A stretch of 32,199 nt of DNA from Pseudomonadota bacterium. GTDB lineage: Bacteria > SZUA-182 > DTGQ01. A program made the position numbers and the translations under genes. The notes below the pieces were generated by a model. It was given only the letters and a program-made list of their open reading frames with translations. It ran no database searches and was not told the origin of the DNA. Where the stretch lies: the NCBI GenBank assembly GCA_030625085.1, contig DAOURK010000042.1:1-32199 (forward strand). The letters run 5' to 3'. This document shows, in pieces, positions 7,610-32,199 of the stretch (within the stretch, counting starts at the first letter, position 1; each line of letters opens with the position of its first letter).

Positions 7610-8809
7610 ATGAGTGAAATTCTTATTAGCGTTGAAAATATAAATAAAAAATTTTGTCGTGATCTCAAACGTTCCCTTTGGTATGGAATTAAAGATTTAT
7701 CCTATGAATTTATTGGGCTTAATAAAATAAATGGACATCTTCGGAAACATGAATTTTGGTCTCTTAAAAATGTTAGTTTTGAGGTTAAGCGAGGCGAATG
7801 TTTAGGACTAATTGGTCCTAATGGAGCAGGGAAAAGTACTTTGTTGAAGATGCTACACGGCTTAATTAAACCGGATGCTGGGAAAATTATAATGCGTGGG
7901 CGGGTAGGGGCCCTGATCGAATTGGGAGCCGGTTTCAATCCTATATTAACAGGAAGAGAGAATATATATATCAACGGCGCAGTATTAGGATTTTCTAAAA
8001 AAGAAATGGACAAAAAGCTTGATGATATAATTGATTTTGCTGAAATCGGTGACTTTATTAACGCACCTGTCCAGAGTTACAGTTCGGGCATGAAAGTGAG
8101 ATTGGGTTTTGCTATAGCTGCCCAAATGAACCCGGATATACTTCTTATCGATGAAATATTGGCGGTTGGAGATGTAGGTTTTAGGGCAAAATGCTATAAT
8201 GCTATCCACAAATTAAACATGAATGCTGCCGTAATTTTTGTATCACACAGCATGCCCTCAATTGCGCGTATATCTTCTAAGTGCATGGTTCTAAATAAAG
8301 GCCGCTCAATTTTTCAAGGTACGGCAGATAATGCTATTCAGCAATATTATTCTCTTTTTGAGGAAGAAAAATTAGATATTCAATATCCGGCGGGAAGTGG
8401 CGAAGCATTAATTGAGAGAATGGAAATCTATGCCATAGAAGGGCATGAAAACGAGATATTTCGATTCGGTGATTCCATGACTATTTCTTGTGATATAAAG
8501 GTTTCACCGAAATATAAGACTTTTTTAATCTCAATCACCTTCATGAATCAAGAAATGCAGCTTATCGCCCAGTGTCATTCCGGCTATAATAAAGTTGTTC
8601 TTGAAAATGATGGTCATTCGAAAAAGATACAAATAACCATACCAAAACTTATTCTTAATCCGGGAACGTACGCAATTAATGTAATTATATTTGATGAAAC
8701 AAATCAAAAATATTTGGGTTGGTACCTCAAGGCTAAAAAATTCAAGGTTGTTGGTGAATTTGTCGGAGGCGCTCATATTCAATTACTCGGCGCATGGAAC
8801 GTGATGTAA
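7610..8809 (+). CDS. polysaccharide ABC transporter ATPase with glycan-recognition domain (Wzt type)
   Basis: ATPase that powers export with the preceding permease. Walker A GPNGAGKST is at residues 69-77, the ABC signature YSSGMKVRL at about 157-165, Walker B ILLIDE at 177-182, and the switch His at 213 in VSHSM. These sit in an N-terminal domain of about 240 residues. Residues from about 245 to 399 form an extra beta-rich region (FRFGDSMTISCDIKVSP, LNPGTYAINVIIFDE) matching the position and style of the Wzt C-terminal carbohydrate-binding domain. In O9a-type systems that domain recognises the terminal modification of the chain, so the exported glycan probably carries a capping group. A methyltransferase follows immediately, which is suggestive. 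Confidence 0.93.
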   Translation: MSEILISVENINKKFCRDLKRSLWYGIKDLSYEFIGLNKINGHLRKHEFWSLKNVSFEVKRGECLGLIGPNGAGKSTLLKMLHGLIKPDAGKIIMRGRVGALIELGAGFNPILTGRENIYINGAVLGFSKKEMDKKLDDIIDFAEIGDFINAPVQSYSSGMKVRLGFAIAAQMNPDILLIDEILAVGDVGFRAKCYNAIHKLNMNAAVIFVSHSMPSIARISSKCMVLNKGRSIFQGTADNAIQQYYSLFEEEKLDIQYPAGSGEALIERMEIYAIEGHENEIFRFGDSMTISCDIKVSPKYKTFLISITFMNQEMQLIAQCHSGYNKVVLENDGHSKKIQITIPKLILNPGTYAINVIIFDETNQKYLGWYLKAKKFKVVGEFVGGAHIQLLGAWNVM

Positions 8810-8815
8810 TTGCTC

Positions 8816-9763
8816 ATGAAGGAGATTACTGGTCAATTATATTGTTCCTTCTGTGGTGGTGAATGTTTTTTTCGTTATCGGATGGGGGAGTATAATATTT
8901 GGCAATGCCAAAAATGCAAGACGGGAAGTGTATGGCTGAAGCCGAGTCTGGAAGTATTGAAAAAATATTATGATGGATTTTTACCTCATCTTGACGTAAA
9001 AAGGATAGTTGTTGTGAAATCGGCTGCCAAAAATTTGTTTCCCCATCTGGGTATTTGCTCTGCAGGTAATTTAAAAATGCTCGATATCGGAGGAGGAGGA
9101 GGTTTCTTCGGTAAGGCCTTTGAGGATTTAGGGTATGGAGAGTGTACCTATGTAGATCTTGATGTGAAGTCATGCCGTTTTGCCCGAAACAGCCTCAGGC
9201 TTAAAAGAGTATTTAATTGTGATGCAATGAATATAAAAGAACATATAAATCAAAAATTCGATTTTATTTATTGTCGTCATCTTATTGAACATCTTCCGGA
9301 TCCTACAGCGTTTCTAAAAAAGATAATGTCCTATTTAAATGATCACGGAATATTTGTTGTTCAGTTTCCTAACGGTAATTCTTTAGAATATCTCGCCTAT
9401 TCTAACCCAGGCATAACCCGGAGATTTGTCCAAGTTCGTGAAACAAATAATTATTCGAAGCTAAGGGTTTATTGGATAATGATCAGTGGGGGTATGCTTC
9501 ACGGGCTCGATCCGCCCCGCCATCTATGGGCAATTACCGAAGCAGGGATTAAGAAGTGGGCTGATGATAAAAAGGTAATGTGCCATGTTAAGGCTTATCA
9601 TCTAGGTGATCCGGCCTACTCGCCTTATTATAAAAAAGGAAAAACCCTGAAAGGTAAGGTAAGAGAGTTCCTTGGGCAGCGAATACTGAGTTCGGTTTAT
9701 GGCGGCACCCATCTGGTAGCTGTCCTTCAACAAAAACCTTCCCCAAAAATAGAAAAATGCTGA
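8816..9763 (+). CDS. SAM-dependent methyltransferase with N-terminal zinc ribbon
   Basis: A class I methyltransferase. Four cysteines (CSFC at 10-13 and CQKC at 31-34) make a small zinc-ribbon-like N-terminus common in glycan-locus methyltransferases. The SAM-binding motif I is MLDIGGGGGFFG, and CRHLIEHLPDPTAFL is the later conserved block typical of the Methyltransf_11/23 type. The C-terminal part (PPRHLWAITEAGIKKWADD) also fits. It lies 6 bases after the Wzt-like ATPase; a TTG at 8810 is an alternative start. Position suggests it methylates the glycan or its terminus, or a sugar intermediate, in the cytoplasm. The end overlaps the next gene by 7 bases. Confidence 0.85.
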   Translation: MKEITGQLYCSFCGGECFFRYRMGEYNIWQCQKCKTGSVWLKPSLEVLKKYYDGFLPHLDVKRIVVVKSAAKNLFPHLGICSAGNLKMLDIGGGGGFFGKAFEDLGYGECTYVDLDVKSCRFARNSLRLKRVFNCDAMNIKEHINQKFDFIYCRHLIEHLPDPTAFLKKIMSYLNDHGIFVVQFPNGNSLEYLAYSNPGITRRFVQVRETNNYSKLRVYWIMISGGMLHGLDPPRHLWAITEAGIKKWADDKKVMCHVKAYHLGDPAYSPYYKKGKTLKGKVREFLGQRILSSVYGGTHLVAVLQQKPSPKIEKC

Positions 9764-11106
9764 GAATTTGTTTATATTGTTCTCGATATAATTTTGAACC
9801 GATGAACCTTATGCCTTTGGGGATTGGGTATATTGCCGCTTATCTTATTCATCAGGGAATAGTCAGCGAAACCGAAATATGTATTGTTGATAATCTTGAT
9901 GAGGCTATGGCTTTTAAACCCGATATTTTAGGTGTAAGCGCCGTTAGTCAGGTTATTAAACAAGCGCGTGATTTTGCCGGGGAGTGCAAGAAAAAATTTG
10001 GGTGCCTCACTGTTTTAGGGGGCTACCATGTTACCTCTATTCCCGATAAACTTCCTCAAGAATTTGATATCGGCGTTATAGGAGAGGGAGAGAATACCTT
10101 TGCCGAAATTGTCAGACTTTATCAAACGAATCAACTGACAACAAAAGCTTTGACACAGGTTAAAGGCATTTGCTGGCGCCAAGGCCTTGAAATTGTAATG
10201 AATGAGCGCAGAGAGTTAATTGAAAATATAGATTCTCTTCCATGGCCATACAGACATAAAGAATATTCAAAAGAGGCCCCAATATTTACTTCCAGGGGCT
10301 GTCCCTACAACTGCATTTTCTGCGCTTCTCATCAATTTTGGTGCGATCGTTTTCGTTTGCGCAGTTCAGATTCCATTGTTGCGGAGATTCATTACCTCGT
10401 CAATAAATATCAACCAAAGGAATGTGTTATTTTGGATGATCTTTGGATGGCTAATAAAAAACGTTTTCGGGAATGTGTAGAGAAGTTAATAGAACTTAAG
10501 ATCCCCGAAAAAGTAAGTTTTAGAGGATTTTGTCGCTCAAATCTCATTGGGGAGGAAGAGATTATCCTTTTAAAAAAGATGAATTACAGATTTATTCGTT
10601 TTGGAGCGGAAACAGGTTCTGACAAATTACTCAAATATTTGAAAGGAGATAATATTTCAGTAGCTGATCATCAAAGGGTAATCGACTTGTGCCAAAAGCA
10701 TAATATAAAATGCGGTGCTTCGTTTATGTTCGGCGTGCCTGGAGAAACAAGGGAAGATCTGGAAGCCACCATACATTTTTTACATAAAAACGTGGGTAAG
10801 TTTAAAATTATAGGTTTTTACTTTTTTAATCCTATTCCAGGGACCACAATTTGGAATCGGATGAAAAGTAAGGGTATGATTACTGATGATTTTCAATTTG
10901 AGCGTTTGCAACTGGATTTTAAAAAAGTGAATTTTTCCTGGGATAAGGTCATGTATTTTAATCGGGAAAATGTTCCTCTTGATGAGTTTCGGAAAATAAT
11001 AGAAAAAATCAGAGCTGATTTTATCGACATAAACAAACCAAGGAAAAAGCTTATCTGGTATAACCGGCTAAACAGATATCTTGCTAAATGCTTGCCAATA
11101 AGATAA
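9757..11106 (+). CDS. B12-binding-type radical SAM protein
   Basis: Radical SAM enzyme with the order N-terminal cobalamin-binding-like domain (1 to about 155; PLGIGYIAAYL, VLGGYHVTSIPD, IGEGENTF) and a TIM-barrel with the cluster motif C182-P-Y-N-C186-I-F-C189 preceded by TSRG. The second half has FRFGAETGSDKLLKYLKGD and SFMFGVPGETREDLEATIHF, both usual for the family. Members methylate unactivated carbons or rearrange substrates. I do not see a clear DxHxxG cobalamin ligand, so B12 may be bound base-off or not at all. In this position it may act on a sugar or lipid carrier intermediate; that is inference. The cluster is oxygen-sensitive, which fits an anaerobe. Confidence 0.87.
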   Translation: MLRICLYCSRYNFEPMNLMPLGIGYIAAYLIHQGIVSETEICIVDNLDEAMAFKPDILGVSAVSQVIKQARDFAGECKKKFGCLTVLGGYHVTSIPDKLPQEFDIGVIGEGENTFAEIVRLYQTNQLTTKALTQVKGICWRQGLEIVMNERRELIENIDSLPWPYRHKEYSKEAPIFTSRGCPYNCIFCASHQFWCDRFRLRSSDSIVAEIHYLVNKYQPKECVILDDLWMANKKRFRECVEKLIELKIPEKVSFRGFCRSNLIGEEEIILLKKMNYRFIRFGAETGSDKLLKYLKGDNISVADHQRVIDLCQKHNIKCGASFMFGVPGETREDLEATIHFLHKNVGKFKIIGFYFFNPIPGTTIWNRMKSKGMITDDFQFERLQLDFKKVNFSWDKVMYFNRENVPLDEFRKIIEKIRADFIDINKPRKKLIWYNRLNRYLAKCLPIR

Positions 11107-11132
11107 AAACCATTTAAAAGATTAATAAGTGT

Positions 11133-13835
11133 ATGGTAATGCCAACAGTTAAAGAAACAACACAAAAACAGGGGATATGTGTTGGTTGTGGGCTTTGTGC
11201 TTTCATCTGTCCAAAAGATGCCATTAATATGCACTGGAGCAAAGAGCAGAAATGGTGGCCCATAATTGATGAGGCGAAATGTAATGAGTGCGGGCTTTGT
11301 ACTGAAGTGTGTCCGCAAACACCCAAAATGATAGCGAAATATGCAATAGAGGCAGCAAGAGAAGGTGAACGTTTCGGCCTTCAAGATGCCGGGTATTTTA
11401 TCGCCTATGATTTGAATCAGGAGAATCGGATTCGCAGCGCTTCAGGAGGTGCGACGAACGCTATACTGAAACATCTTCTGGGCACAGGGGAAATCGATGG
11501 GGTGATTGCCTCCGTCCCTGTGATGGCGCCTATAGGGCAACCGCACTATGAAATGAAAATTATTAGATCCATGGAGGAATTGGAAAAAGCAAGAAGTTCA
11601 CATTATTATCCCTTACGATACGATAATGTCTTAAGAAAAATAAGTCAGGATAAGAGCAAATATGCTGTTACAGGGACACCTTGTATCTTTCATGGACTTA
11701 AAAAATTACCTGAACATATTTTAGATAAAATTAAATTTACCTTTTGTTTAGCCTGTGGCTATTCGGTTAACGGACAATTTTTAGATTGTTTGGCCAAGCA
11801 GGAAGGGGTCCGGGATAAAGAAGGCTATATCGCCAATTTGCGAGATAAATTTGGAGGCATTCCCAATGGAAAAAACTATAATGACTATTTTAAGCTGAAG
11901 GATCGAGATATCCGTCGCAATCGCTTTAAGACTGCTCATACCCATATGTGGCGAAATTATTACTTTGCCCGGGAATGCTGTTTTTATTGTGCGGATTTTT
12001 ATGGCTCAGAGGCAGATCTTACAGTGAAAGACGCCTGGGGTCCTTTGAGCAATGATCCTTTAGGAATCTCCTTGCTGGTGGTTAGAAATCAAAAACTTAT
12101 TTCCCTTTTACATGAACTCAAAAGGATGGAAAAGCTTCATCTTGAGCCATGTTCTGAAGAAGAAGTTTTTCGTTCTCAGAGGATTACACCCATATTTAAG
12201 CATATACAAGTTCGGGATAGACTGGTGTGGAAAAAAAGTATTCGCCGTGAGTTAGCCAAAGACAATTATCCTTTAGGCGCTACACGAAGATTTTGTCACA
12301 AAGATTCCTGGAATTATTTCCGGCTCAAATCTATAATGCATTCAGTAAAATTTATATATACACATTTTGGCCACAGGCCGATAAGCGGCATGGTTATCAC
12401 AGCCAAAACCTTTAATAGGTTAAAAAAGAAATTGAGAAAATATGCATTCACGCTGTTTCAGCGCCTAAAGCATATTAGCGATAGATATGCATGCCCGGGA
12501 AAACGTAAAAAACAAAAATACTATCTCAATAATGGAAATCTTAGGGTGCTCATTTCCGGGGGGTATGGTTACTGTAATGTCGGAGATGAAGCACAGCTTG
12601 CTGCAAATCTTCAACATTGGAGGAGAGCAGCGCCTCATTGTCGGCTGACTGTTCTGACACCAAATCTAAAGTATACGCAAAGAATCCATCATGATGTAAA
12701 ATTAGAGCATGCCCCACGAATTACCCTGTTTAGATGGGGCAGTAAGCCATATTTTGGCTCGGAAAAGTTATTTAAAAAATTGTTTTTTCTGCTGGCTCCC
12801 CTCTATATAATAAATGCCCATCTGATCAAGGCAGGATTCCCACCCTTGGGACTGACCACCCGACAGGCTCGAATGCTGAAAGAAATTAAAAGGGCTGATG
12901 TTTTATTTTTTTCCGGGGGGGGATATTTGACTGGAATGACCTTGACCAGGCTGTGGGATAATATGTTGCTTATCCGGTTGGCCCATGTCTTTGATGTGCC
13001 TGTCTTGTTATCAGGGCAAACAATTGGTGTTTTTAAAGATTCAATAAGCCGATCATTAGCCAAATGGGGCTTAAAAAAAGCCGAACTTATTTATTTGCGT
13101 GATCATTCTGATTCCCCCAGGGCTTTGTCTTCTATTGGTATTCAAGCCAAAAGGATAAGGAGTACCTTTGACGACGCCCTTTTTTTTCAGGCTGCTCCAT
13201 CGGAAAAGATTGCTGATTTTTTGAAAAAAAACAGCATTGATTCAAACAAACCCTATCTAGCGGTAAACGTGCATTATTGGGGGCAGAGTTTAAGAGATTC
13301 CAGGATAATCATGAAAGAAATAGCTTCTTCTCTTGATGCTATTCAGGAAGATTTAGATCTTCAAATTGTATTTGTGGCTATGCACAAGAAAGATGAGCCG
13401 GCTATTGACGAGGTAATCGTTTCAATGAAAAAATCCGGCGTCTTATTAAATCATGATTATTCTCCTGAATTAGCGGTGGGTATTATTCATAAGGCCGGCT
13501 TATGTCTGACCATGAAACATCACCCCATTATTTTTGCCTTGGCAGGGGGGGTGCCTACTGTCTCTATGGCCTTTGACGACTATTACTGGCATAAGAATAG
13601 AGGGGCCCAAAAGATATTCGGGCTCGAGGAGTTTGTTATTTTTGGATGTATTGAGGAGTTAAGTAAAAATATTTATGAAAAAATACGGGAAATTCACTCT
13701 CAAAGAGAAAAGCTTTCCTTTCAGATTAAAGCCCGCCTTGAAGAACTAAGACCGGAGGCCGGAGAAATAATATATCGATGGCGGGAGACTATACATTATC
13801 CTTGGCCTTCATCTACAGATTCCTTAACGCGCTGA
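11133..13835 (+). CDS. fusion of FrhB-like iron-sulfur protein and polysaccharide pyruvyl transferase
   Basis: A 900-residue two-part protein. Residues 1-65 hold two 4Fe-4S motifs (C16-C19-C22-C26-P and C50-C53-C56-C60-P). Residues from about 85 to 400 match the coenzyme F420 hydrogenase/dehydrogenase beta-subunit (FrhB N and C) type: RSASGGATNAILKHLL, VTGTPCIFHGLKKL, CCFYCADFYGSEADLTVKDAW. After a basic linker, residues from about 470 to 830 are a polysaccharide pyruvyl transferase domain: LISGGYGYCNVGDEAQ, FFSGGGYLTG, MKHHPIIFALAGGVPTVSMA. These two families often occur as neighbouring genes in capsule loci. Here they form one reading frame with no break, suggesting they work together on one modification. 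Pyruvyl transferases ketal-link pyruvate to sugars using PEP. The role of the FrhB part is unknown. ATG at 11139 is an alternative start. Confidence 0.88.
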   Translation: MVMPTVKETTQKQGICVGCGLCAFICPKDAINMHWSKEQKWWPIIDEAKCNECGLCTEVCPQTPKMIAKYAIEAAREGERFGLQDAGYFIAYDLNQENRIRSASGGATNAILKHLLGTGEIDGVIASVPVMAPIGQPHYEMKIIRSMEELEKARSSHYYPLRYDNVLRKISQDKSKYAVTGTPCIFHGLKKLPEHILDKIKFTFCLACGYSVNGQFLDCLAKQEGVRDKEGYIANLRDKFGGIPNGKNYNDYFKLKDRDIRRNRFKTAHTHMWRNYYFARECCFYCADFYGSEADLTVKDAWGPLSNDPLGISLLVVRNQKLISLLHELKRMEKLHLEPCSEEEVFRSQRITPIFKHIQVRDRLVWKKSIRRELAKDNYPLGATRRFCHKDSWNYFRLKSIMHSVKFIYTHFGHRPISGMVITAKTFNRLKKKLRKYAFTLFQRLKHISDRYACPGKRKKQKYYLNNGNLRVLISGGYGYCNVGDEAQLAANLQHWRRAAPHCRLTVLTPNLKYTQRIHHDVKLEHAPRITLFRWGSKPYFGSEKLFKKLFFLLAPLYIINAHLIKAGFPPLGLTTRQARMLKEIKRADVLFFSGGGYLTGMTLTRLWDNMLLIRLAHVFDVPVLLSGQTIGVFKDSISRSLAKWGLKKAELIYLRDHSDSPRALSSIGIQAKRIRSTFDDALFFQAAPSEKIADFLKKNSIDSNKPYLAVNVHYWGQSLRDSRIIMKEIASSLDAIQEDLDLQIVFVAMHKKDEPAIDEVIVSMKKSGVLLNHDYSPELAVGIIHKAGLCLTMKHHPIIFALAGGVPTVSMAFDDYYWHKNRGAQKIFGLEEFVIFGCIEELSKNIYEKIREIHSQREKLSFQIKARLEELRPEAGEIIYRWRETIHYPWPSSTDSLTR

Positions 13836-13851
13836 TATTGTTAACTAATTG

Positions 13852-14697
13852 ATGATTAATACTTTAAACAGACTTTTTGCTCCAACCCAAACCAACTTCG
13901 CCTCCAACGGCTGTAAGGGAGAGCTTCCTCTTTGTTTTTTTATGCATATTCCAAGATGCGGAGGAACATCCGTCGAACACGCCCTGAGGAAAATCTATCC
14001 TAATGCGGCAGGTTTACAGGCTGCTGCCTCATTTAGGGCCACGCAGGCCCTTTATCCGGAAGCCTCATCCAGCGAGAAAGATTTTCATATGTTCAAACTT
14101 CGGGAAAGTCTTCTGCTGTATCATATGGGCTGGCATATTCCATTGGTGCATGGTCATTATGGATTCAGCGAGCCGGCCTATCGGGAGTTTGGAACCAAAT
14201 ATAGATTTATTACAGTTCTTCGCGACCCGGTTGAGAGATTTATCTCTCTTTATTTTTACAACACTTTTAAATCCCAAAACTACGCCAAAATTAACATGGA
14301 CCTCAATACATTTATTCATTCGGAAGAAGGGCGATCGCAGGGGCGCCAATACGTTAAATTTATTGGAGGAGTTGCCGAAGGTGAGGACTATAAGTCTAAT
14401 AAAGCGATCGATAGAGCATTGGGCAATCTGGAAAAGTTTTCCGCAGTGGGAGTACTTGAACGGCTGGATGCGTTTATGGTAACTATACAGTCCGTTTTCG
14501 GTCACCGGATTTGCATACGCCATGAGAATAAAAATCCAAAACCGAGGATCGAATGGGAAGAGAGTGTTTCCGAAGATCTTCGGAACGAGGTTCGTTCCCT
14601 TTGTGGTCCGGATATAGAAGTTTATAATCATGCTCTGACCTTTTGTAAAAATGCCCCAGTAATCTTTTTGGATGACACGGGCGAGTTGAGAAGATGA
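13852..14697 (+). CDS. PAPS-dependent sulfotransferase (Sulfotransfer_2-like)
   Basis: Transfers sulfate from PAPS, probably to a sugar hydroxyl. The 5'-phosphosulfate loop FMHIPRCGGTSVEHALR is near residues 31-46, and the 3'-phosphate site FITVLRDPVERFISLYFYN near 118-136. These are the two diagnostic motifs of the carbohydrate sulfotransferase fold; the HIPRCGGTS form resembles the heparan 2-O-sulfotransferase-like group. The length of about 281 is typical. TTG at 13849 is an alternative start one codon earlier, and there is no good SD. It overlaps the next gene by ATGA. No PAPS-forming gene is in the window. Confidence 0.87.
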   Translation: MINTLNRLFAPTQTNFASNGCKGELPLCFFMHIPRCGGTSVEHALRKIYPNAAGLQAAASFRATQALYPEASSSEKDFHMFKLRESLLLYHMGWHIPLVHGHYGFSEPAYREFGTKYRFITVLRDPVERFISLYFYNTFKSQNYAKINMDLNTFIHSEEGRSQGRQYVKFIGGVAEGEDYKSNKAIDRALGNLEKFSAVGVLERLDAFMVTIQSVFGHRICIRHENKNPKPRIEWEESVSEDLRNEVRSLCGPDIEVYNHALTFCKNAPVIFLDDTGELRR

Positions 14698-15992
14698 AAA
14701 CTTTTAAGACGGTGTTATTTAGATTGACTAAAATACCAATACCCTTTTTAAAAAAAATATTGGTTGTTGATTTAAGGAAGTGGCATGGCCTCAATTATCA
14801 AATTATTTCAGCTTTGTGTTTATGGAAGGGGTATAAAGTAATATTTTTTAAATACAGAAAAATCTTTGAGCTCAAGGATGATTTTACCAAAGATAATGTT
14901 ACCAAAGATGCTTATAAGTCTATTATTTTGCATGATATACCTATTTATGAGGTAGCCATTTATTCCATTTGTGTAGATCTTAAAATTTTCCCGTCTGAGC
15001 TGGACCTCGATAATCCGGAACATATTCAGACAACCATAAAATGGTATAAGAGGTCGGCTGAGATCATAGAAAACATGGTTTATTATTTTAACCATTACCC
15101 GATTGTCAGGGTGGTTATATTACAGGGACATTTACCTGAAGCAACTGCATCCCGGATAACAGCTCATAGGAGAGGGATAGAAGTGATTTCTTTTGAAAAT
15201 ACCTTCAATAAAACAAAATTAGTATGGGATGATGTGTCTGGTATTACGGTAAATAAAAATTTGGCCAAAAATTATTTCTGGAAATGGGAAAATACTATCA
15301 ATCACCAACTTGCCTGGCAAAGTGTGGATACCTATCTTAAGAATATAAAGAATAATAAAACTGAAGAACATGAGAGCCCTTTAGAGAGTTTGTCAATTCC
15401 CAAAAAGAAAAAGTGTATTTTGTTTTTTGGGCAAGTCTATACGGATTCTTCCGTCTTATTCGGAATTAACGATTTCAATAATCCGGTCACCATTATTCAT
15501 GAATTGGCTAAATACTCTGAAGCAAATGATTTTGAGTTGATCATTAAATTACATCCAAAAGAGGTAGAAGGTATTGACATTTTAAAAAGAAAATATGATT
15601 TACTTACTTACCAAAAAATTATGTCTCTTCAGGCTTTATCAGAGATCATTCGATCAACGAATATCTTCATAGATTCTAAAAATCAATACGATACATATAA
15701 TTTCATTGACAGGGCAGACATTTGCGTTACCATAAATTCTCAAGCAGGATTAGAAGCCTTGATAAAAGGGAAAGATGTTATTTCTTGTGGTAATGCAAGC
15801 TATGGCGGGTTAGGGTTTACCTTTGACGCCCAAAACAGAGATATGTTGATATTTTTTTTAGACTTAAAATTAAAACACGGAGTTTCTTTTATAGATGATA
15901 ATAAAATAAATAAATTTTTTTATATTTTTAATGAGCTCTATTGTATAAATAAAAATGAAGAAGACTTTGTAACTAAAATTATTGAAGGATGA
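14694..15992 (+). CDS. capsule-synthesis-type glycosyltransferase (KpsC/KpsS-like)
   Basis: 432 residues, resembling the Capsule_synth family that includes the Kdo transferases KpsC and KpsS. Supporting motifs are FFGQVYTDSSVLFG near residue 246 (the QVxxDxS pattern), LIIKLHPKE near 284 (the His-Pro motif), and DICVTINSQAGLEALIKGKD near 345. GNASYGGLGFT follows, as expected for the nucleotide-sugar site. The N-terminal half (LVVDLRKWHGLNYQIISALCLWKGYKVIFF) is a Rossmann-like domain. In classic capsule systems KpsC/S builds the Kdo linker on phosphatidylglycerol; here it may add an acidic sugar within the chain. ATGA overlaps at both ends show tight coupling with the sulfotransferase and the next glycosyltransferase. 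Confidence 0.72.
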   Translation: MKTFKTVLFRLTKIPIPFLKKILVVDLRKWHGLNYQIISALCLWKGYKVIFFKYRKIFELKDDFTKDNVTKDAYKSIILHDIPIYEVAIYSICVDLKIFPSELDLDNPEHIQTTIKWYKRSAEIIENMVYYFNHYPIVRVVILQGHLPEATASRITAHRRGIEVISFENTFNKTKLVWDDVSGITVNKNLAKNYFWKWENTINHQLAWQSVDTYLKNIKNNKTEEHESPLESLSIPKKKKCILFFGQVYTDSSVLFGINDFNNPVTIIHELAKYSEANDFELIIKLHPKEVEGIDILKRKYDLLTYQKIMSLQALSEIIRSTNIFIDSKNQYDTYNFIDRADICVTINSQAGLEALIKGKDVISCGNASYGGLGFTFDAQNRDMLIFFLDLKLKHGVSFIDDNKINKFFYIFNELYCINKNEEDFVTKIIEG

Positions 15993-16813
15993 ACATGCAA
16001 CCCCTCGTTTCGGTTATTATGCCGGCTTATAATGCTCAAAATTTTATCGCTGAAGCCATTGAATCGGTTATTCATCAAACATATAAAAATTTAGAATTGA
16101 TTATTGTTGATGACGGGAGCAAAGACAAAACCTATGATATTTGCCGGCATTATTCCAACAAATACGGCAACATAAAATTGCTTAGGCATCACCATGGAGG
16201 CAATCAAGGAGTAAGTAAATCGAGAATGCTGGCGCTGAAGAAAAGTAATGGAAAATATGTGGCTTTCTGTGATGCGGATGACCTGTTTTTGCCGAATAAA
16301 ATTGAAATACAAATAGCAAAATTAGAACAATATAATTATATTGCCATGTGTCATACAGCCGTAAAACTTAAATCAGATTCTGATGTCAATAATAAGCAGT
16401 TAAAAGCCTTCCATCCCTTTTCACAAGATTATATTTATGCATACCATAAGCAATCATATTTTCTCAAACATAATAGAATTTGTAATTCTACGGTAATTGC
16501 TCGTGCGGAATTACTCAAAAATTTGAATTTTTCCTTCAGGCAGCTCTTTCAATTTGAGGATTGGTTGTTGTGGGTTTTGTTATCAATAAAGGGCAAGTTT
16601 CTGTTTTTAAACGAGCAATTAACCGAGTATCGTTATCACAGGGAATCATCATCATATTTAGTAAACAGGCAGCCCTTAAAAAAACATTATTCATTCATTG
16701 AATTTTACTTCCTTGTTTTGATTAAGTCCCCTAATTTGGCTTATCGATTGAAATCATTGCATCAACTATTTATGACTTTGAGAAGGCTTCATTCGGTGTA
16801 TAAAAAGGACTAG
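15989..16813 (+). CDS. family 2 glycosyltransferase
   Basis: Cytoplasmic or membrane-associated inverting glycosyltransferase of the GT-A fold. Motifs are VSVIMPAYNAQNFIAEAIES at the N-terminus, LIIVDDGSKDKT, and the DxD metal site FCDADDLF near residue 93. FEDWLLWVLL near 190 includes the usual ED pair. At 274 residues it is a plain single-domain enzyme without membrane helices. It starts by ATGA overlap with the preceding gene. Its TAG stop (16811-16813) is built from the CTAG target of the insertion described at 16811-20190. In the reconstructed uninterrupted operon it would be followed 13 bases later by the GT4 gene now at 20205. Confidence 0.9.
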   Translation: MNMQPLVSVIMPAYNAQNFIAEAIESVIHQTYKNLELIIVDDGSKDKTYDICRHYSNKYGNIKLLRHHHGGNQGVSKSRMLALKKSNGKYVAFCDADDLFLPNKIEIQIAKLEQYNYIAMCHTAVKLKSDSDVNNKQLKAFHPFSQDYIYAYHKQSYFLKHNRICNSTVIARAELLKNLNFSFRQLFQFEDWLLWVLLSIKGKFLFLNEQLTEYRYHRESSSYLVNRQPLKKHYSFIEFYFLVLIKSPNLAYRLKSLHQLFMTLRRLHSVYKKD

Positions 16814-16824
16814 TGTCATGTCAA
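16813..16824. repeat. left terminal inverted repeat of the insertion
   Basis: GTGTCATGTCAA, identical to the inverse of 20177-20188. Including the symmetrical CTAG target the match is 15 bases. Similarity stops directly inside. Confidence 0.8.
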
Positions 16825-17018
16825 GCTATGAAACCTTTCCTCCAGATAGGGCAAAGGCGTTATGGGATAAATTTGAATTTGTGTATACTCCGAAGCATGG
16901 GAGTTGGTTGAATATGGCAGAGATAGAGTTGAATGTGCTGACTGGTCAGTGTCTAAACAGAAGAATTGACCTCTCCGGGAATACCTACGTCTATATCTTT
17001 CTCCCAGAAATTGTTTAA
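16818..17018 (+). pseudogene. IS630-family transposase, C-terminal remnant
   Basis: The translation SYETFPPDRAKALWDKF, then FVYTPKHGSWLNMAEIELN and CLNRRI, is the highly conserved region around the last catalytic Glu of IS630 DDE transposases. The N-terminal domain and the first two Asp motifs are missing. After NRRI (about 16968) the reading frame continues into unrelated residues until a stop at 17018. It begins immediately inside the left terminal repeat, so an internal deletion or rearrangement joined the IS end to this fragment. It cannot encode an active enzyme. Confidence 0.85.
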
Positions 17019-17036
17019 CAGTAAGGGCTTTATATA

Positions 17037-17077
17037 AGTGACAATTTTTGTTTATAAGACGTTCATTTTTTGTCACT
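17037..17077. repeat. short inverted repeat
   Basis: AGTGACAA (17037-17044) and TTGTCACT (17070-17077) form 8-base arms around 25 AT-rich bases. The arms contain the same TGACAA/TTGTCA words as the dyad 80 bases downstream. It could be a spaced operator, a small hairpin or a worn IS end. Confidence 0.4.
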
Positions 17078-17154
17078 GTGAAATATGAAGAGTCATTTCA
17101 GTAATTTACCTTAGCTCTGCTCTTTAAAAATGAGCGGATGCCTTTACTTTTTAT

Positions 17155-17169
17155 TGACAAATATTGTCA
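17155..17169. promoter_or_regulatory. palindromic operator-like site TGACAA-N3-TTGTCA, second locus
   Basis: Identical in both 6-base arms and the 3-base spacing to the dyad upstream of pilA (377-391). It lies about 190 bases before the predicted start from the sigma-54-like element at 17324-17340, a normal distance for an enhancer-bound activator. Function inferred. Confidence 0.4.
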
Positions 17170-17323
17170 TTTTTGTTTTTTTGAAAAATGATATATGCGG
17201 CCTACCCCACGTATTACGTTATTGCCATAAGGGGAGTTTTTGATAGCTAAGTTTAAGAAATAATGTGATTTAGGCTCACAGAGACATCAAGAAATAAGAG
17301 AATATTCAAGTATTCAATTATGA

Positions 17324-17340
17324 ATGGCACTATTCTTGAT
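17324..17340 (+). promoter_or_regulatory. sigma-54-like promoter of the cargo genes
   Basis: ATGGCACTATTCTTGAT has a perfect -24 box (TGGCAC) and a -12 box TTGAT in place of TTGCT, at the right spacing. The usually invariant C of the -12 GC is A, so strength is doubtful. It lies 87 bases before the start of the 111-residue gene. Confidence 0.45.
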
Positions 17341-17426
17341 GATAAAGAAAGATTACGAAAGGGCAGAAGAGACAATTCATTTCAAGATTAAGTAAAAATT
17401 AAATTGTCTGAAGGGAGGTAAATAAA

Positions 17427-17762
17427 ATGGAAAAGATTAATATAGCCCGCAGGCGATGGGAAAAGCAAAAGTCCTTATCATTGAATAATACCGATCCAAA
17501 TATCTTTCCGGGAAAGATGAAGAATCTCGCCTCATCTATAGTGTCAGCATTAAATGAAATAGTTAACGTAATTCATACTGAAAAGATTAAGTTAACAATG
17601 GAAATTTTTTCTCATCCTGAACATTCCTATTGTCTTTCTTCAGCCCCTGCTTTTAAGGTGAATCTTTGTAATTGCCTTTCAAAAATCCAAAAAGGAAGTT
17701 TGAATAAAAAGAAGGGAGACATTTATATTTTTCAGTTTTCAGGAAACAACTATTTTGAATAA
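17427..17762 (+). CDS. small protein of unknown function (cargo gene)
   Basis: 111 residues, not recognised. A strong SD (GGGAGGT, spaced about 7 bases) makes translation likely. The N-terminus is basic (MEKINIARRRWEKQKS). The middle (LASSIVSALNEIVNVIHTEK) looks helical and amphipathic. There is no signal peptide or membrane helix. The C-terminal half has three cysteines (YCLSS, LCNCLSK). It lies behind a sigma-54-like promoter and 125 bases before the secreted fibre gene, so the two may be cotranscribed. A regulatory or export-accessory role is possible, but nothing in the sequence decides it. Confidence 0.6.
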   Translation: MEKINIARRRWEKQKSLSLNNTDPNIFPGKMKNLASSIVSALNEIVNVIHTEKIKLTMEIFSHPEHSYCLSSAPAFKVNLCNCLSKIQKGSLNKKKGDIYIFQFSGNNYFE

Positions 17763-17887
17763 AGGAGTGAGGCGCAACAGAGCATTTCGGCCATAATTTT
17801 TTAAGAATGAGGTCCAGGGGAGAGGCGAAATATTTTTTATTCTGAGGGCTAATTTTTCTAACCTCAAAGTATAAGGAGATTCAAAAA

Positions 17888-19735
17888 ATGAAAAAGGAGG
17901 AAATATTCATAGTATTCGCTGCAACACTAGCGTTGTATTTCTTTTTCACTCCTTCTATACTCCAAGCCAAGAAGACAAATAACCCTTATTTTCAATATGT
18001 TGTCTTTCCAACTCCGATTTATACTGAGAGTGAAATTAGCTTAACTATTTGCCTTGTTAATCTGGGTGGCGAAGGGGAACTGATCTATGAGGGATCAGAC
18101 ACAGATCAGATAGTCATATCTGTTCCTCTGGGCAGTGGTCCTGGTGATTTGGTGGATGATACCAGTACCTCTCTTTTTTATTGTACATCTCAATCTCCTT
18201 TATGGGTGTGCGAAGAGCCGGATATCTTTGGCGATAAGATATTCTTTACCTTTCATCCGGAGGGCATAATACAAGTTAGGGAAGGAGAAACTATTTGTTT
18301 TGATATAAATCCGATACAGGTCAATTTAGAACCAGGACTGGTTTTTTTAGATGTGGATCAACAGATCGATAAAAGAAGAGTACAAAGTGATAAGAATAAT
18401 ACAATAAGCATTTTAAAAATCGGTCATGACACAGCCACATTTATCGAGACGGACCCTCTATTTTTCGAAATGAATACAGAAATGGAATTGGAAGATCAGA
18501 TAGAAGACGTATCCGATATCTTTACGAATAATGATGGCAATTTAGCTGATGATGACCTATCAGATAACCAAATAGCCGACTTATCAGATGTTGACACAAC
18601 CGGGATGACGAATGACAAAATATTAAAATATCTAAACGGTGGATGGAAAATTGCCGATGACAACACTGGCATAATGACTGAGACCGATCCTACTGTAAAT
18701 GCTGAAGTCAAGGATGGTGTGGATTGGTCTGAGCTATCGGGGATACCTCTAGATATCATCGATGGTGATGATAAAGGCATTATCAAAGAAACCGATCCCA
18801 CTGTATTATCTAGTGTCAAGGATGGTGTATCCTGGGATGAGATCACGGGTATTCCCTTGAGTTTCGCTGATGGCATTGATAATGTTGGCATAACTGCAGA
18901 GATGGACCCAAAAGTAGGGAGCACTATAACAAATCGAATTTCTAAATGGAATGGAGCACAACTTATTGATTCAAAGTCAATTTTTGAGAATTCAAGTGGA
19001 AATGTCGGCATAGGCATGATGAATCCGGCAAGCGCATTAGACGTAAATGGCACTGTTACAGCTATAGCCTTTGTAGGTGATGGTTCCGGATTGACTAATC
19101 TTTCCTCTGGTCCGTGGTCGGAAATTGAAGGTAATGTAGTGAGAAATTCGGGCAATGTCGGAATAGGAACACAAAGTCCAGTTGCGCGGGTTACCATTGC
19201 ATACACTGGGACCATTGGCAATCCACTTGATCCGGATTTTTCCGGGGCAGGACTTGTGTTGGATGATGGAAAATATAAGCTTGCCCTTGATGAGAATCAA
19301 ATTTTATCAACACACAATTTAAACTTTGCCACCCAAAACGGCACTAGTTTGCATATAGCGAGTAACGGGAACGTCGGTATTGGTACAACGCAGCCTGTAG
19401 GCAAGCTAGACGTAAATGGCCTCATCTACCAAAGGGGAGATGAATTCAATGCTGATTATGTTTTCGGCACAGAATATGAGCTTGAGTCAATCGAGGAGCA
19501 TGCTGATTTTATGTGGGATAACAAGCACCTTAAGGCAATTCCAGTGGCGCAACAAGTGGATGATGATAGCGGCCGGCAAATCATAGAAACTGGCGCTCAT
19601 CGAAGGGGTATTGTAGAAGAGTTGCAGAAGGCACACATTTATATTGTACAACTTCACAAGCTTATTGAACAACAGAATATAATAATTGAAAATTTAGAAG
19701 TACGCATCGATGCTTTAGAAAATATGGAGTATTAG
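17888..19735 (+). CDS. secreted fibre-like protein with repeats and C-terminal coiled coil
   Basis: 615 residues with an N-terminal signal sequence (about 1-27, ending ILQAKK). Residues from about 30 to 180 form a beta-rich domain with cysteines. From about 262 come two near-identical units of about 37-40 residues (ETDPTV..VKDGV.W.E..GIPL...DG.D..GI) plus a third partial unit. From about 370 there are three GNVGIG(T)..P repeats (SALDVNGT, GKLDVNGL), the pattern of phage tail-fibre and trimeric surface proteins. The end (YELESIEEHADFMWDNKHL, then EELQKAHIYIVQLHKLIEQQ) is a conserved-looking coiled-coil tail similar to intramolecular-chaperone-type C-termini. It is probably a trimeric exported fibre or adhesin. 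SD AAGGAG lies about 10 bases upstream. It is the main cargo of the insertion. Confidence 0.82.
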   Translation: MKKEEIFIVFAATLALYFFFTPSILQAKKTNNPYFQYVVFPTPIYTESEISLTICLVNLGGEGELIYEGSDTDQIVISVPLGSGPGDLVDDTSTSLFYCTSQSPLWVCEEPDIFGDKIFFTFHPEGIIQVREGETICFDINPIQVNLEPGLVFLDVDQQIDKRRVQSDKNNTISILKIGHDTATFIETDPLFFEMNTEMELEDQIEDVSDIFTNNDGNLADDDLSDNQIADLSDVDTTGMTNDKILKYLNGGWKIADDNTGIMTETDPTVNAEVKDGVDWSELSGIPLDIIDGDDKGIIKETDPTVLSSVKDGVSWDEITGIPLSFADGIDNVGITAEMDPKVGSTITNRISKWNGAQLIDSKSIFENSSGNVGIGMMNPASALDVNGTVTAIAFVGDGSGLTNLSSGPWSEIEGNVVRNSGNVGIGTQSPVARVTIAYTGTIGNPLDPDFSGAGLVLDDGKYKLALDENQILSTHNLNFATQNGTSLHIASNGNVGIGTTQPVGKLDVNGLIYQRGDEFNADYVFGTEYELESIEEHADFMWDNKHLKAIPVAQQVDDDSGRQIIETGAHRRGIVEELQKAHIYIVQLHKLIEQQNIIIENLEVRIDALENMEY

Positions 19736-19852
19736 ATAAAATATTTACACGAACACCATTTACGAAATTTATGTGTAATTAATCGTAATTATTAGTCGTT
19801 CTTTATTGACGATTGGCCCATTTATGAAGAACCTTATATTACAATAAATTAA

Positions 19853-20077
19853 GCTGCTTGTGCTTATCAACGGCCACGAGTAGAGGACAGGTGTATCCAT
19901 TTTTTGTTTAAATCACTTTCAAAATTGAAGGCATGTGTATATTCCTTACAAAATTTTTATAAATTTTATGGAGATCTTTTATTTGCCTTACCAAAACCGG
20001 TTGATATAATAGATCTTTCAAAAAATTCTAAATTTGTAAAAATGGTCCTTCAAGAAGGTATTGTACTCTATGGCTGA
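19853..20077 (+). pseudogene. MNT-type nucleotidyltransferase, C-terminal remnant
   Basis: A frame open between stops, whose last third reads YGDLLFALPKPVDIIDLSKN then KFVKMVLQEGIVLYG. This matches the end of minimal nucleotidyltransferases (MNT antitoxins of HEPN/MNT pairs), with the VD.IDL acidic strand and the (R)EGIVLYG ending. The GSxARG-type active site and N-terminus are absent upstream, and there is no usable start with SD. No HEPN partner was recognised. It is a decayed piece, so the insert has gathered or kept old genomic debris. Confidence 0.5.
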
Positions 20078-20176
20078 TTATAAAACACGTAATGTTGGAT
20101 GAAGCCGAGCCAGCTTTATCTGATATCTTTGGTCTATTATAGGTAAAATATATTACATTTTTACGACATAACAAAG

Positions 20177-20188
20177 TTGACATGACAC
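20177..20188. repeat. right terminal inverted repeat of the insertion
   Basis: TTGACATGACAC, the exact inverse of 16813-16824, followed by the TA of the duplicated target (20189-20190). Confidence 0.8.
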
Positions 20189-20204
20189 TAGAGGCTGAAG
20201 ATCA

Positions 20205-21428
20205 ATGAGAATTGCCCTGGTTACAACCATATTTCCCTGCCTATCGCAGACCTTCGTGCTGAATCAGATTACCGGCTTATTGGATCTGGGACACGACGTT
20301 CACATCTTTGCTCTGAGCGCGCAGAATGAAAAGTGTCACCCGGATGTCATTAAGTATAATCTCCTAGGGCGGACGACATATCTTAAAAATTTCCCCATAC
20401 CTAAGGGTAAAAGGATTTCCAAGGCGTTTCGATGGATAGCCCAAAATGCCTGTTATCATCCCCGCTCGATTATAAACGGCCTCAATCCATTAGGGGGTTG
20501 GAAAAGTGCGATAGATCTCACGCGTCTCTTTTATACAATTTCCTTCCTTGATAAGGGGCCTTATGATATCGTGCATTGTCATTTTGGAGGTATGGGTCGT
20601 TTATTATCAGCTATCATTTCCTCTATACCGCATAAAGTGTTTGTTACCTCTTTTTATGGATACGATGTCACAAGACGTTCGCAGATCAGCACAGGAGTTT
20701 ATAAACGGTTAATAAAAAGAGGGGATTTTTTTCTTCCCCTTAGCCGTACTATGGAGAATAAATTGATAAAGTTAGGTTTCCCAGAGGAGCGAATTATCTG
20801 TCATCAGATCGGCATTCAACCATCTAAATTTGAATTTTTCGAACGAATTCACAGCAATGGAAGGCCGATTCACCTTCTTACCATAGCGCGGTTGGTTGAG
20901 AAAAAGGGTGTTGAATATGGTCTTAAGGCCATAGCCAAGATTCTGCAAGGCAACGGTGTCGAAATCCGTTATCGTATTGCCGGCGATGGCCCTTTACGTG
21001 AGGAATTAGAAATACTTACTTGGCGACTTGGTATTTCAAAATATGTGGAGTTCCTTGGCTGGAAAGAGCAGAGTGAAATGGTAAAATTATTCCAAACCTC
21101 CGATATTTTTATGCTGCCGAGTATAACAGCCTCTGATGGTGATCAGGAAGGCACACCGGTAGCCCTGATGGAAGCCCAGGCCATGGGTTTGCCTGTATTG
21201 TCAACCTTACACAGCGGCATTCCCGAAATTGTCCGACATGGGAAATCGGGTTATCTGGTTCCCGAGCGTAATGCGGAGGCCCTAGCGGAGAGGCTGGAGC
21301 ATCTTATAACGCATCCGCAAGAATGGCCGCTTTTAGGGCAAGAAGGCCGCCGGATTATCATGGCACATCACGATGTAAGCAAATTGAATAGACTGTTGGT
21401 TGAAATTTATCAGCGATGGGAGCACTGA
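20205..21428 (+). CDS. family 4 glycosyltransferase (WcaL-like)
   Basis: Retaining GT-B glycosyltransferase, 407 residues. The N-terminus MRIALVTTIFPCLSQTFVLN, then VHCHFGGMGRLLSAI and VTSFYGYDVTRR, is the pattern of colanic acid WcaL and related enzymes. The C-terminal half has LLTIARLVEKKGVEYGLKAI and the EX7E donor site EGTPVALMEAQAMGLPV near residue 314. It is soluble or membrane-peripheral and cytoplasmic. Its start lies 14 bases beyond the insertion edge. In the reconstructed locus it would directly follow the GT2 gene at 15989-16813 with a 13-base gap, so its expression now depends on read-through from the insert or a new promoter. Confidence 0.92.
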   Translation: MRIALVTTIFPCLSQTFVLNQITGLLDLGHDVHIFALSAQNEKCHPDVIKYNLLGRTTYLKNFPIPKGKRISKAFRWIAQNACYHPRSIINGLNPLGGWKSAIDLTRLFYTISFLDKGPYDIVHCHFGGMGRLLSAIISSIPHKVFVTSFYGYDVTRRSQISTGVYKRLIKRGDFFLPLSRTMENKLIKLGFPEERIICHQIGIQPSKFEFFERIHSNGRPIHLLTIARLVEKKGVEYGLKAIAKILQGNGVEIRYRIAGDGPLREELEILTWRLGISKYVEFLGWKEQSEMVKLFQTSDIFMLPSITASDGDQEGTPVALMEAQAMGLPVLSTLHSGIPEIVRHGKSGYLVPERNAEALAERLEHLITHPQEWPLLGQEGRRIIMAHHDVSKLNRLLVEIYQRWEH

Positions 21429-21474
21429 GACACTTTAACATGGTAAATCAATTGAGTCGGAAAGAGAGTTATCA

Positions 21475-22380
21475 GTGCTGCCAAATTTTTTGATTATTGG
21501 TGCACAAAAATCAGCGAGTACTTTTATCCAGTTATGCTTAGCAGAGCATCCCGAGGTATTCATGCCTTCCGGTGAAATACCTTATTTTGAGGACCCCGAT
21601 TATTCTAAAACGGAACGGGAAAAGTTTGAAAGGCTTTTTCATGGCGCACAGGGCAAGAAAGCCATAGGAATGAAGAGGCCAAACTATTTAGCGAAATCTG
21701 AGTGCCCGGGGCGAATACATGAGGTTATTCCCAAGGTAAAACTTATTGTTGTTCTTCGTGACCCAATCGAAAGAGCCATATCAGCATATTTTCATTATAT
21801 TCGTGAAGGCTTTATTCCTCCCTGTCCCATTGAAGAGGGCATGATAAAAATACTTGATGGGAAGTACCGGCAAAAGTGGCCAAGGTCCCGGGAAATTGTT
21901 GAATTTGGTTTTTATTATCAACATCTCAAAAGATATTTCGCGGTATTTGATGAAGAACAGGTATGTATTTTATTCCACAAAGACATTCTTCAAAATAGGT
22001 TGAAACAGATACAAAAAATTTATCAATTTCTTGGAATTGATGTTTCATACATTCCTCAGCAATTAGATAGCAGACCTCAAGCGGCCCTTTATTCCCTTTG
22101 GAGACTTTGGATTTTAAGGCTTCGCAATAATTCCCTGTATATTTACTCGAGAGAGAGAACTCGTCTGTATTTCAAAGAACAAAGCTCACTGGATAAGATG
22201 ATATGTTTTGCAATTAATGGTATAGATAGCCTTTTTTTATCACGATTATTGTGTGCGAAAAGACCAAATATAAGCGAGAGTTTACGGCGAAGATTATCCT
22301 TACTTTATAAACACGATATCAGGGACATTGGCAAGCTCTTGAAGATAAATTGCTGGAATTCAATCAGAAATTCTTATTGA
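21475..22380 (+). CDS. PAPS-dependent sulfotransferase (NDST/Sulfotransfer_1-like)
   Basis: Second carbohydrate sulfotransferase of the locus, of a different subtype from the one at 13852. The 5'-phosphosulfate loop is FLIIGAQKSASTFIQLCLAE at residues 5-24. The 3'-phosphate site is VVLRDPIERAISAYFHYIRE near 94-113. The early block HPEVFMPSGEIPYFED is usual for the heparan N-sulfotransferase-like group. The length of 301 is normal. The start is GTG with a weak AAAGAGAG upstream; no better in-frame start exists. It lies 46 bases after the GT4 gene. The acceptor is probably a sugar of the exported glycan. Confidence 0.88.
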   Translation: MLPNFLIIGAQKSASTFIQLCLAEHPEVFMPSGEIPYFEDPDYSKTEREKFERLFHGAQGKKAIGMKRPNYLAKSECPGRIHEVIPKVKLIVVLRDPIERAISAYFHYIREGFIPPCPIEEGMIKILDGKYRQKWPRSREIVEFGFYYQHLKRYFAVFDEEQVCILFHKDILQNRLKQIQKIYQFLGIDVSYIPQQLDSRPQAALYSLWRLWILRLRNNSLYIYSRERTRLYFKEQSSLDKMICFAINGIDSLFLSRLLCAKRPNISESLRRRLSLLYKHDIRDIGKLLKINCWNSIRNSY

Positions 22381-22426
22381 TGAGTTTTAGGATCAGTATC
22401 TTCATCCGGCACATTGGGGATAAATT

Positions 22427-23356
22427 ATGAACTGGCAGGGAGCCGACAAAAACATAGCAAAGCCCTTTGTTTCGGTAATAATACCGGTTTTTAATGATGC
22501 CCATCGACTTCAAATCTGCCTGGAAGCATTAGGAAATCAGACCTATCCTGAAAATCTGTACGAGGTCATTGTGGTTGACAATGGTTCTGATGAGGCAGTT
22601 GAAAAAATTGTCGGTCATTTCGCTCAAGCATCGGTTATTGTGGAAAACCGGCCCGGCTCCTATGCTGCCAGAAACAAAGGTATTGCTTTGGCCGGAGGTG
22701 AGATTATTGCTTTTACTGATGCTGACTGTATTCCAGGAACAGATTGGATTAAAAAGGGCGTATTCAATATCCTCCGGCATCCTAATTGTGGATTGGTTGG
22801 CGGCAAGATAGAAGTTTTTTTTAAAAATCCCCAACGGCTTACGTCCGTGGAACTTTATGAGTCTTTAAGGGCCTTTCCCCAAAAAAAATATATTGAAAAG
22901 CTTCATTTTGGGGCCACAGCCAATATGTTTACCTTAAAAAGAGTTTTTGATACAGTGGGGTTGTTTAATGACAAACTTACATCCGGTGGAGATAGAGAGT
23001 GGGGGCAGCGCGTTTTTTATTTCGGCTATAAGCATGTGTATGCTGAAAATGCCTGTGTAGCTCATCCGGCACGGTTTTCTTTTAGACAATTACATCAAAA
23101 AATAGCTCGTATCAATTCATCAGGAAATCATGATTTGCCTGCAGAAGGGAGTCAATTCCATTTCAATAGAGTTGGGTGCTTGATGAGATTTCTCATCCCT
23201 CCTCTTAAAACGATTATTTCAAAGGCTTTCTTAGAACCTCGATTACCTTCAACCAAGGATAAACTCAAGCTTGCTTTTGTTTTGTTGTATAGACACTATG
23301 TAATATCTGCTTATAGAATACATGCTTGCTTCTGGATGGTACATCAAAAAACATGA
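22427..23356 (+). CDS. family 2 glycosyltransferase
   Basis: GT-A enzyme of 309 residues. It has VSVIIPVFNDAHRLQICLEA, VIVVDNGSDE, the segment RPGSYAARNKGIALAGGEII, and the DxD site FTDADCIPG near residue 103. GGDREWGQRVFYFGY near 187 supplies the ED-like acceptor-side motif. The C-terminus is basic and weakly hydrophobic, with no clear membrane span. The stop overlaps the start of the next gene (ATGA at 23353-23356), so the two are translated together. The donor sugar cannot be predicted. Confidence 0.9.
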   Translation: MNWQGADKNIAKPFVSVIIPVFNDAHRLQICLEALGNQTYPENLYEVIVVDNGSDEAVEKIVGHFAQASVIVENRPGSYAARNKGIALAGGEIIAFTDADCIPGTDWIKKGVFNILRHPNCGLVGGKIEVFFKNPQRLTSVELYESLRAFPQKKYIEKLHFGATANMFTLKRVFDTVGLFNDKLTSGGDREWGQRVFYFGYKHVYAENACVAHPARFSFRQLHQKIARINSSGNHDLPAEGSQFHFNRVGCLMRFLIPPLKTIISKAFLEPRLPSTKDKLKLAFVLLYRHYVISAYRIHACFWMVHQKT

Positions 23357-31768: not shown

Positions 31769-32101
31769 TTATAAAAGCCCAAGTAAAAGTAAGGTTGTAG
31801 TATTAATGCTGCCGCCGAGTAATATGGCTGTAGTTGTTCCGATAGTTGGTGTGGCTATGCTCGGAGCAGTGGTTAGTGGAATTGTGTTAAGCAAGGTCAA
31901 AGTCGTAGCAATACCTCCGCCTCCGCCGCCAAGAACTAAGGCAGTAGTAATTCCTATGGTTGGAGTAGTAATCGTTGGAGTAAGCGTTGGGAAAAGCGTT
32001 GGAGTAAACGTTGGGGTAAGAGCAGGTAGAAATAACGAGGTTAACCCTCCTCCCGGGGCAACGTCATTCGGAGATTTTTTAAATCCTCTTAAGTGTTTCA
32101 T
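31769..32101 (-). CDS. low-complexity Thr/Pro/Leu/Gly-rich small protein, uncertain
   Basis: 110 residues without a signal peptide. It starts MKHLRGFKKSPNDVAPGGGL and runs into TPTFTPTLFPTLTPTITTP. The unit TPTIG.TTA..LGG then occurs twice about 40 residues apart, with a GGGGGG run. At the DNA level the TP part is a tandem repeat with a 12-base period. The frame is favoured over the opposite strand by its ATG start, its fit with the next gene and the same orientation, but the SD is poor. It could be a repeat-generated open frame rather than a gene. Confidence 0.4.
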   Translation of the reverse strand: MKHLRGFKKSPNDVAPGGGLTSLFLPALTPTFTPTLFPTLTPTITTPTIGITTALVLGGGGGGIATTLTLLNTIPLTTAPSIATPTIGTTTAILLGGSINTTTLLLLGLL

Positions 32102-32199
32102 TTTACAGTCTTAAAAAAAATTTATATTCCCTGTTGACATTTTCGATTATCTGTACTACCCTATAATAAAAGATCTTACCTTCAACCTTTTTACAGTAA

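Follow-up and report, generated by a model that had tools for sequence, protein, structure and literature searches.

The window, the whole 32,199-nt stretch of DNA analysed here, carries genes for a GT2 and a WcaL-like GT4 glycosyltransferase that are now separated by 3391 nt. Gaps between neighbouring genes (8809 to 23356) range from -31 to +46 nt, mostly from -7 to +46 nt. The features recognised in and beside the gap are as follows.

15989..16813, + strand: GT2 glycosyltransferase (Pfam Glycos_transf_2, 1.4e-37); its TAG stop codon holds the target TA
16811..16824, + strand: left terminal inverted repeat TAGTGTCATGTCAA, including the target TA (16811-16812)
16827..16970, + strand: scrap from the C-terminal end of a transposase (ISPna1-type IS630, DDE_3), directed inward; 89.6% amino acid identity to a relic on contig C181
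17427..17762, + strand: 111-aa open reading frame that database searches matched to nothing convincing and that may not be a gene
17888..19735, + strand: intact gene for a putative exported fibre protein of 615 aa, with an N-terminal hydrophobic signal-like helix, a beta-rich N-terminal domain, fibre repeats and a C-terminal helix
19807..19957, + strand: tail of an IS91-type Y2 transposase (ending ..DDWPIYEEPYITIN and a stop) plus non-coding DNA 3' of it; both sides are cut short
19949..20094, + strand: fragment with the C-terminal part of an MntA-like antitoxin nucleotidyltransferase, followed by the first codons of a HepT-like partner
20115..20190, - strand: IRL-type right end of IS630, carrying the decayed start of a transposase; its terminal repeat occupies 20177-20190 and the target TA 20189-20190
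20205..21428, + strand: GT4 (WcaL-like) glycosyltransferase (TIGR04005, 9.3e-72, aligned from residue 1)

A TA is present at both outer ends of the segment, with C and G outside, the form expected for TA duplication within CTAG. When the flanks are joined in silico at one TA (...AAAAAGGAC-TA-GAGGCTGAAGATCAATG), the GT2 gene ends in ...SVYKKD and its TAG stop, and the ATG of the GT4 gene follows after 13 nt, a distance in keeping with the tight packing of the surrounding genes. A preliminary description of this DNA had proposed both the TA duplication and the restoration of an operon on removal of the insert, and both are borne out. The GT4 start appears to be the natural one because the WcaL model matches from the first residue. 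The base outside the end is C in 31 of the 39 distinct ends of the repeat family described below, and CTAG is therefore the usual target. That a unit with IS630 ends inserted at the GT2 stop codon is well supported. We did not find an orthologous GT2-GT4 site: the best match of the GT4 protein among 60 relatives has 35% identity, none being close enough to provide an empty site, and the best match in the wider set of genome contigs has 30%.

IS630 is a common bacterial jumping gene. The segment, 3.4 kb long (16811-20190), is bounded by a fully complementary inverted repeat, CTAGTGTCATGTCAA, at 16810-16824 and 20177-20191. The perfect repeats noted earlier are thus real, and are 15 bp rather than 12 bp in length. 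Two matches to the 14-mer occurred in none of 100 shuffles of the window. A genome census of ends, suggested in the preliminary description and based on pattern and BLAST searches, recovered 10 sites for the 14-mer (allowing one mismatch) and none for a reversed control; eight of these lie elsewhere in the 4.94-Mb genome. The repeat forms miniature elements (MITEs) of 107-120 bp, with 107-bp copies on five contigs (C212, C91, C31, C236 and C40) and a 120-bp copy on C60, which the right window end matches at 72%. Single ends occur too. On contig C65 a related transposase relic has the repeat immediately at its 3' end (..RLYPALES), and on C181 the longer relic is closely followed by a degenerate copy of the repeat. 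Several contig breaks in the class relative G005 fall within an IS630, and there too the repeat directly follows the 3' end. On plasmids of Polaromonas and Caballeronia, ISPna1 and its kin lie in CTAG and carry TAGTGTCGCGTCATGA or similar sequences as terminal repeats. Because the same repeats are found on MITEs, at transposase 3' ends and on ISPna1 elements, the window ends can be assigned to ISPna1-group IS630 elements and the miniature derivatives of these.

Matches to the 14-mer occur in seven of the eight relatives searched, with more than 20 in two of them and so few in some others that they may be chance. Among class relatives, IS630-type ends number 23 in G006 and 36 in G008; where paired, they mostly form MITEs of 44-190 bp, several of which resemble long palindromes. 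In the genome under study, a 107-bp-type MITE directly adjoins another IRL-type end on contig C40 (L017, 9390-9527), a tandem or nested insertion. A lone IS630-type end lies beside a frame that by eye resembles an Rpn nuclease (L016, contig C158, 1348-1361). Its partner was not found on this 6-kb contig, and it may belong to another cargo-bearing unit.

Beside the left repeat, as previously described, lies a scrap of an IS630 transposase (frame 16827-17015, + strand; Pfam DDE_3, 2.7e-7), which shares 91.6% DNA identity over 143 bp with the longer C181 relic. The earlier observation that the interior lacks a transposase also stands, in that an intact DDE transposase is absent and the IS630 scrap is C-terminal. 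The segment is therefore not an autonomous IS630. It has the features of a mobile insertion cassette: insertion sequence ends, a passenger gene and no intact transposase. Among the DDE_3 matches in this assembly (95.6% complete), we did not identify an intact transposase of the scrap's subgroup, and for this reason the element is probably now immobile and stranded. An intact IS630 on contig C159 was considered as a mobiliser and rejected, as it belongs to a different subgroup and is only about 35% identical to the relic; its own ends, looked for by eye, were not resolved. The preliminary description had named full IS630 copies with different ends as an argument against the insertion. The difference in subgroup takes the C159 copy out of that argument, and ISPna1-type elements elsewhere bear these very ends.

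The bases behind the repeat distinguish the two end types of the family, IRL and IRR. G005 served as the reference: there, IRL is followed by the transposase start (MPKIKYTVTLTQAEREELQQI) and IRR is preceded by the transposase end. The right window end aligns with IRL-type ends at scores of 44 (G002), 36 (right end of C60), 32 (C98) and 22 (G005), and with IRR-type ends at lower scores of 19-20; by this comparison it is classed as IRL. On the left, the scrap reads inward on the + strand, and its start side consequently points outward. By this orientation the left end would also be of IRL type, with 14-16 bp left before the scrap. The layout, with a repeat and scrap on the left and an IRL-type end on the right, may be of composite type, and the left copy is very short. 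Start sides that both point outward would correspond to the geometry of a composite transposon formed by two inverted insertion sequence copies, largely deleted since.

The most substantial content of the segment is the fibre gene. As had been proposed, it lies inside the insertion, is intact, and encodes an N-terminal hydrophobic helix. In its fibre repeats (NVGIGTT..LDVNG) the protein resembles families of phage tail fibres (PHROG tail fibre, 4e-11), and residues 245-615 weakly match the Bdellovibrio MAT adhesin bd2133 (E = 0.0032). The structure predicted from the single sequence is of low confidence (mean pLDDT 36.6). No paralogue was identified in this genome and no copy was found in viral contigs; plasmids gave two weak partial matches. 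Relatives, and the phylum to which genome G037 belongs, gave partial matches confined to the repeats. These features suggest an exported, trimeric-fibre-like adhesin.

The interior is not a clean cargo: an IS91 tail and an MntA/HepT fragment, which the preliminary description did not mention, are also inside. The IS91 tail, directly downstream of the fibre gene, has 79-99% DNA identity over all or part of its length to copies on four contigs (C176, C171, C89 and C26), and the C171 copy is 65% identical at the amino acid level to a Y2_Tnp frame on C25. The MntA/HepT fragment has 97% DNA identity to C144:1296-1441, a copy recognised by Pfam as Polbeta (2e-10), with its HepT part identified by eye. 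The BLAST matches of the two pieces overlap by about 9 bases (11 bases, CAAAATTTTTA, by eye), and the join looks like a microhomology junction. Since some pieces are near-identical to other loci of the genome, part of this patchwork is probably recent and local. Searches of Pfam and other databases found nothing recognisable at 17020-17880 besides the 111-aa frame. An Rfam search gave no matches, and the yield of promoter and terminator scans did not exceed that of shuffled sequence. At 31769-32114, close to the window's right edge, both strands carry overlapping frames of repetitive, low-complexity sequence.

We suggest that two degenerate ISPna1-group IS630 copies, with their transposase-start sides outward, bound a non-autonomous transposon of composite type. 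An IS630 transposase acting in trans would have moved the unit by cut-and-paste to the CTAG of the GT2 stop, with duplication of the TA. The unit would have carried in, or at least bounds, the intact gene for the adhesin-like protein. The transposases would have been lost by internal deletions, and the IS91 and MntA/HepT scraps may have entered the interior by illegitimate recombination. We hold this account, in which the fibre gene moved together with the ends, to be reasonably probable, and the gene likely arrived with the IS630-ended unit. Counted against it are the presence of the whole segment only once in this genome, so that there is no proof that the whole unit ever moved, and the near-identity of interior pieces to other loci, which suggests late patching.

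The same two observations give some weight to a different history, in which the CTAG first received a plain IS630 or MITE that later captured the fibre gene and scraps in place, by recombination or by rolling-circle IS91 activity, so that the ends never moved the fibre gene. A mosaic interior, parts of which reach 97-99% identity to DNA found elsewhere in this genome, and the position of the IS91 tail just behind the fibre gene, would fit such a capture. It requires an extra event, however, and start sides that both point outward fit two insertion sequence copies better than one. We favour travel of the fibre gene between the ends, and regard later capture as a rather unlikely alternative.

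It is improbable that two independent IS630 or MITE insertions flanked DNA that had always lain between the GT2 and GT4 genes. An arrangement of this kind does exist on contig C5 of G008, where inward-facing ends separated by 2.4 kb enclose housekeeping genes (fabF- and rnc-like); that contig was considered as a second long unit and rejected, as these genes lie between separate MITE ends. At the present locus, one insertion would need to have hit the GT2 stop codon and the other the stretch immediately ahead of the GT4 start, the inner ends are missing (no inner match has fewer than 3 mismatches in 12), and the neighbouring genes are tightly packed. An inverted repeat arising by chance and unrelated to transposition seems hardly credible, given 10 family sites as opposed to none for the control pattern and the fact that relatives have MITEs and IS630 elements with these ends.

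The locus is a clean example of IS630-type ends around an adhesin-like gene inside a glycosyltransferase cluster, from a poorly sampled phylum in which class relatives are rich in the same ends. If the unit did move as a whole, surface fibres would join the known cargo of IS630. A broader proposal, that the abundant ISPna1-type MITE family also forms long adhesin-carrying units that enter polysaccharide clusters, with IS630 ends spreading cell-surface variation in trans, is a doubtful extrapolation. The locus mainly illustrates how a site between two operon genes can turn into a collecting place for mobile scraps.

The view in the preliminary description that a non-autonomous element moving a large exported protein would be unusual for the IS630 group is not supported. 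An IS630-associated composite transposon entering CTAG, and with it CTAG as an IS630 target, was published in 1991, as stated in the title of Tenzen and Ohtsubo (1991) cited in PMC2170065, and MITEs mobilised by IS630 have been described, RUP among them (PMC2229807). Novelty is modest because of that 1991 report: this is a fairly ordinary cargo insertion, though a clear case, of a type that laboratory work has demonstrated for IS630, and the new details are the type of cargo and the lineage. As far as that title describes it, the 1991 transposon shares with the window segment the IS630 ends, the passenger DNA between them and the TA of a CTAG target; it differs in that here the insertion sequence copies are decayed, the cargo is an adhesin-like fibre with scraps, and the mobility of the unit is putative. 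Elements of the ISPna1 group in Polaromonas and Caballeronia also target CTAG, and their repeats resemble those found here; their transposases are homologous to the C181 relic (about 56-64% amino acid identity), but they have a full-length transposase gene and no cargo. MIC elements (PMC3913671) and TIMEs (PMC4133298) likewise have insertion sequence or transposon ends around passenger genes and lack a transposase; TIMEs are derived from Tn3, whereas the window segment is IS630-ended and present in one copy. The pneumococcal RUP, a 107-bp IS630-related MITE at TA, resembles the MITEs of this genome and, unlike the segment, is without cargo. The fibre resembles the Bdellovibrio MAT fibres (PMC10769870) in export, a beta-rich region after the signal and fibre repeats; bd2133 is its best match of solved structure, albeit a weak one, and, unlike in MAT fibres, an S74 domain was not found in the window protein, whose fold is a low-confidence prediction.
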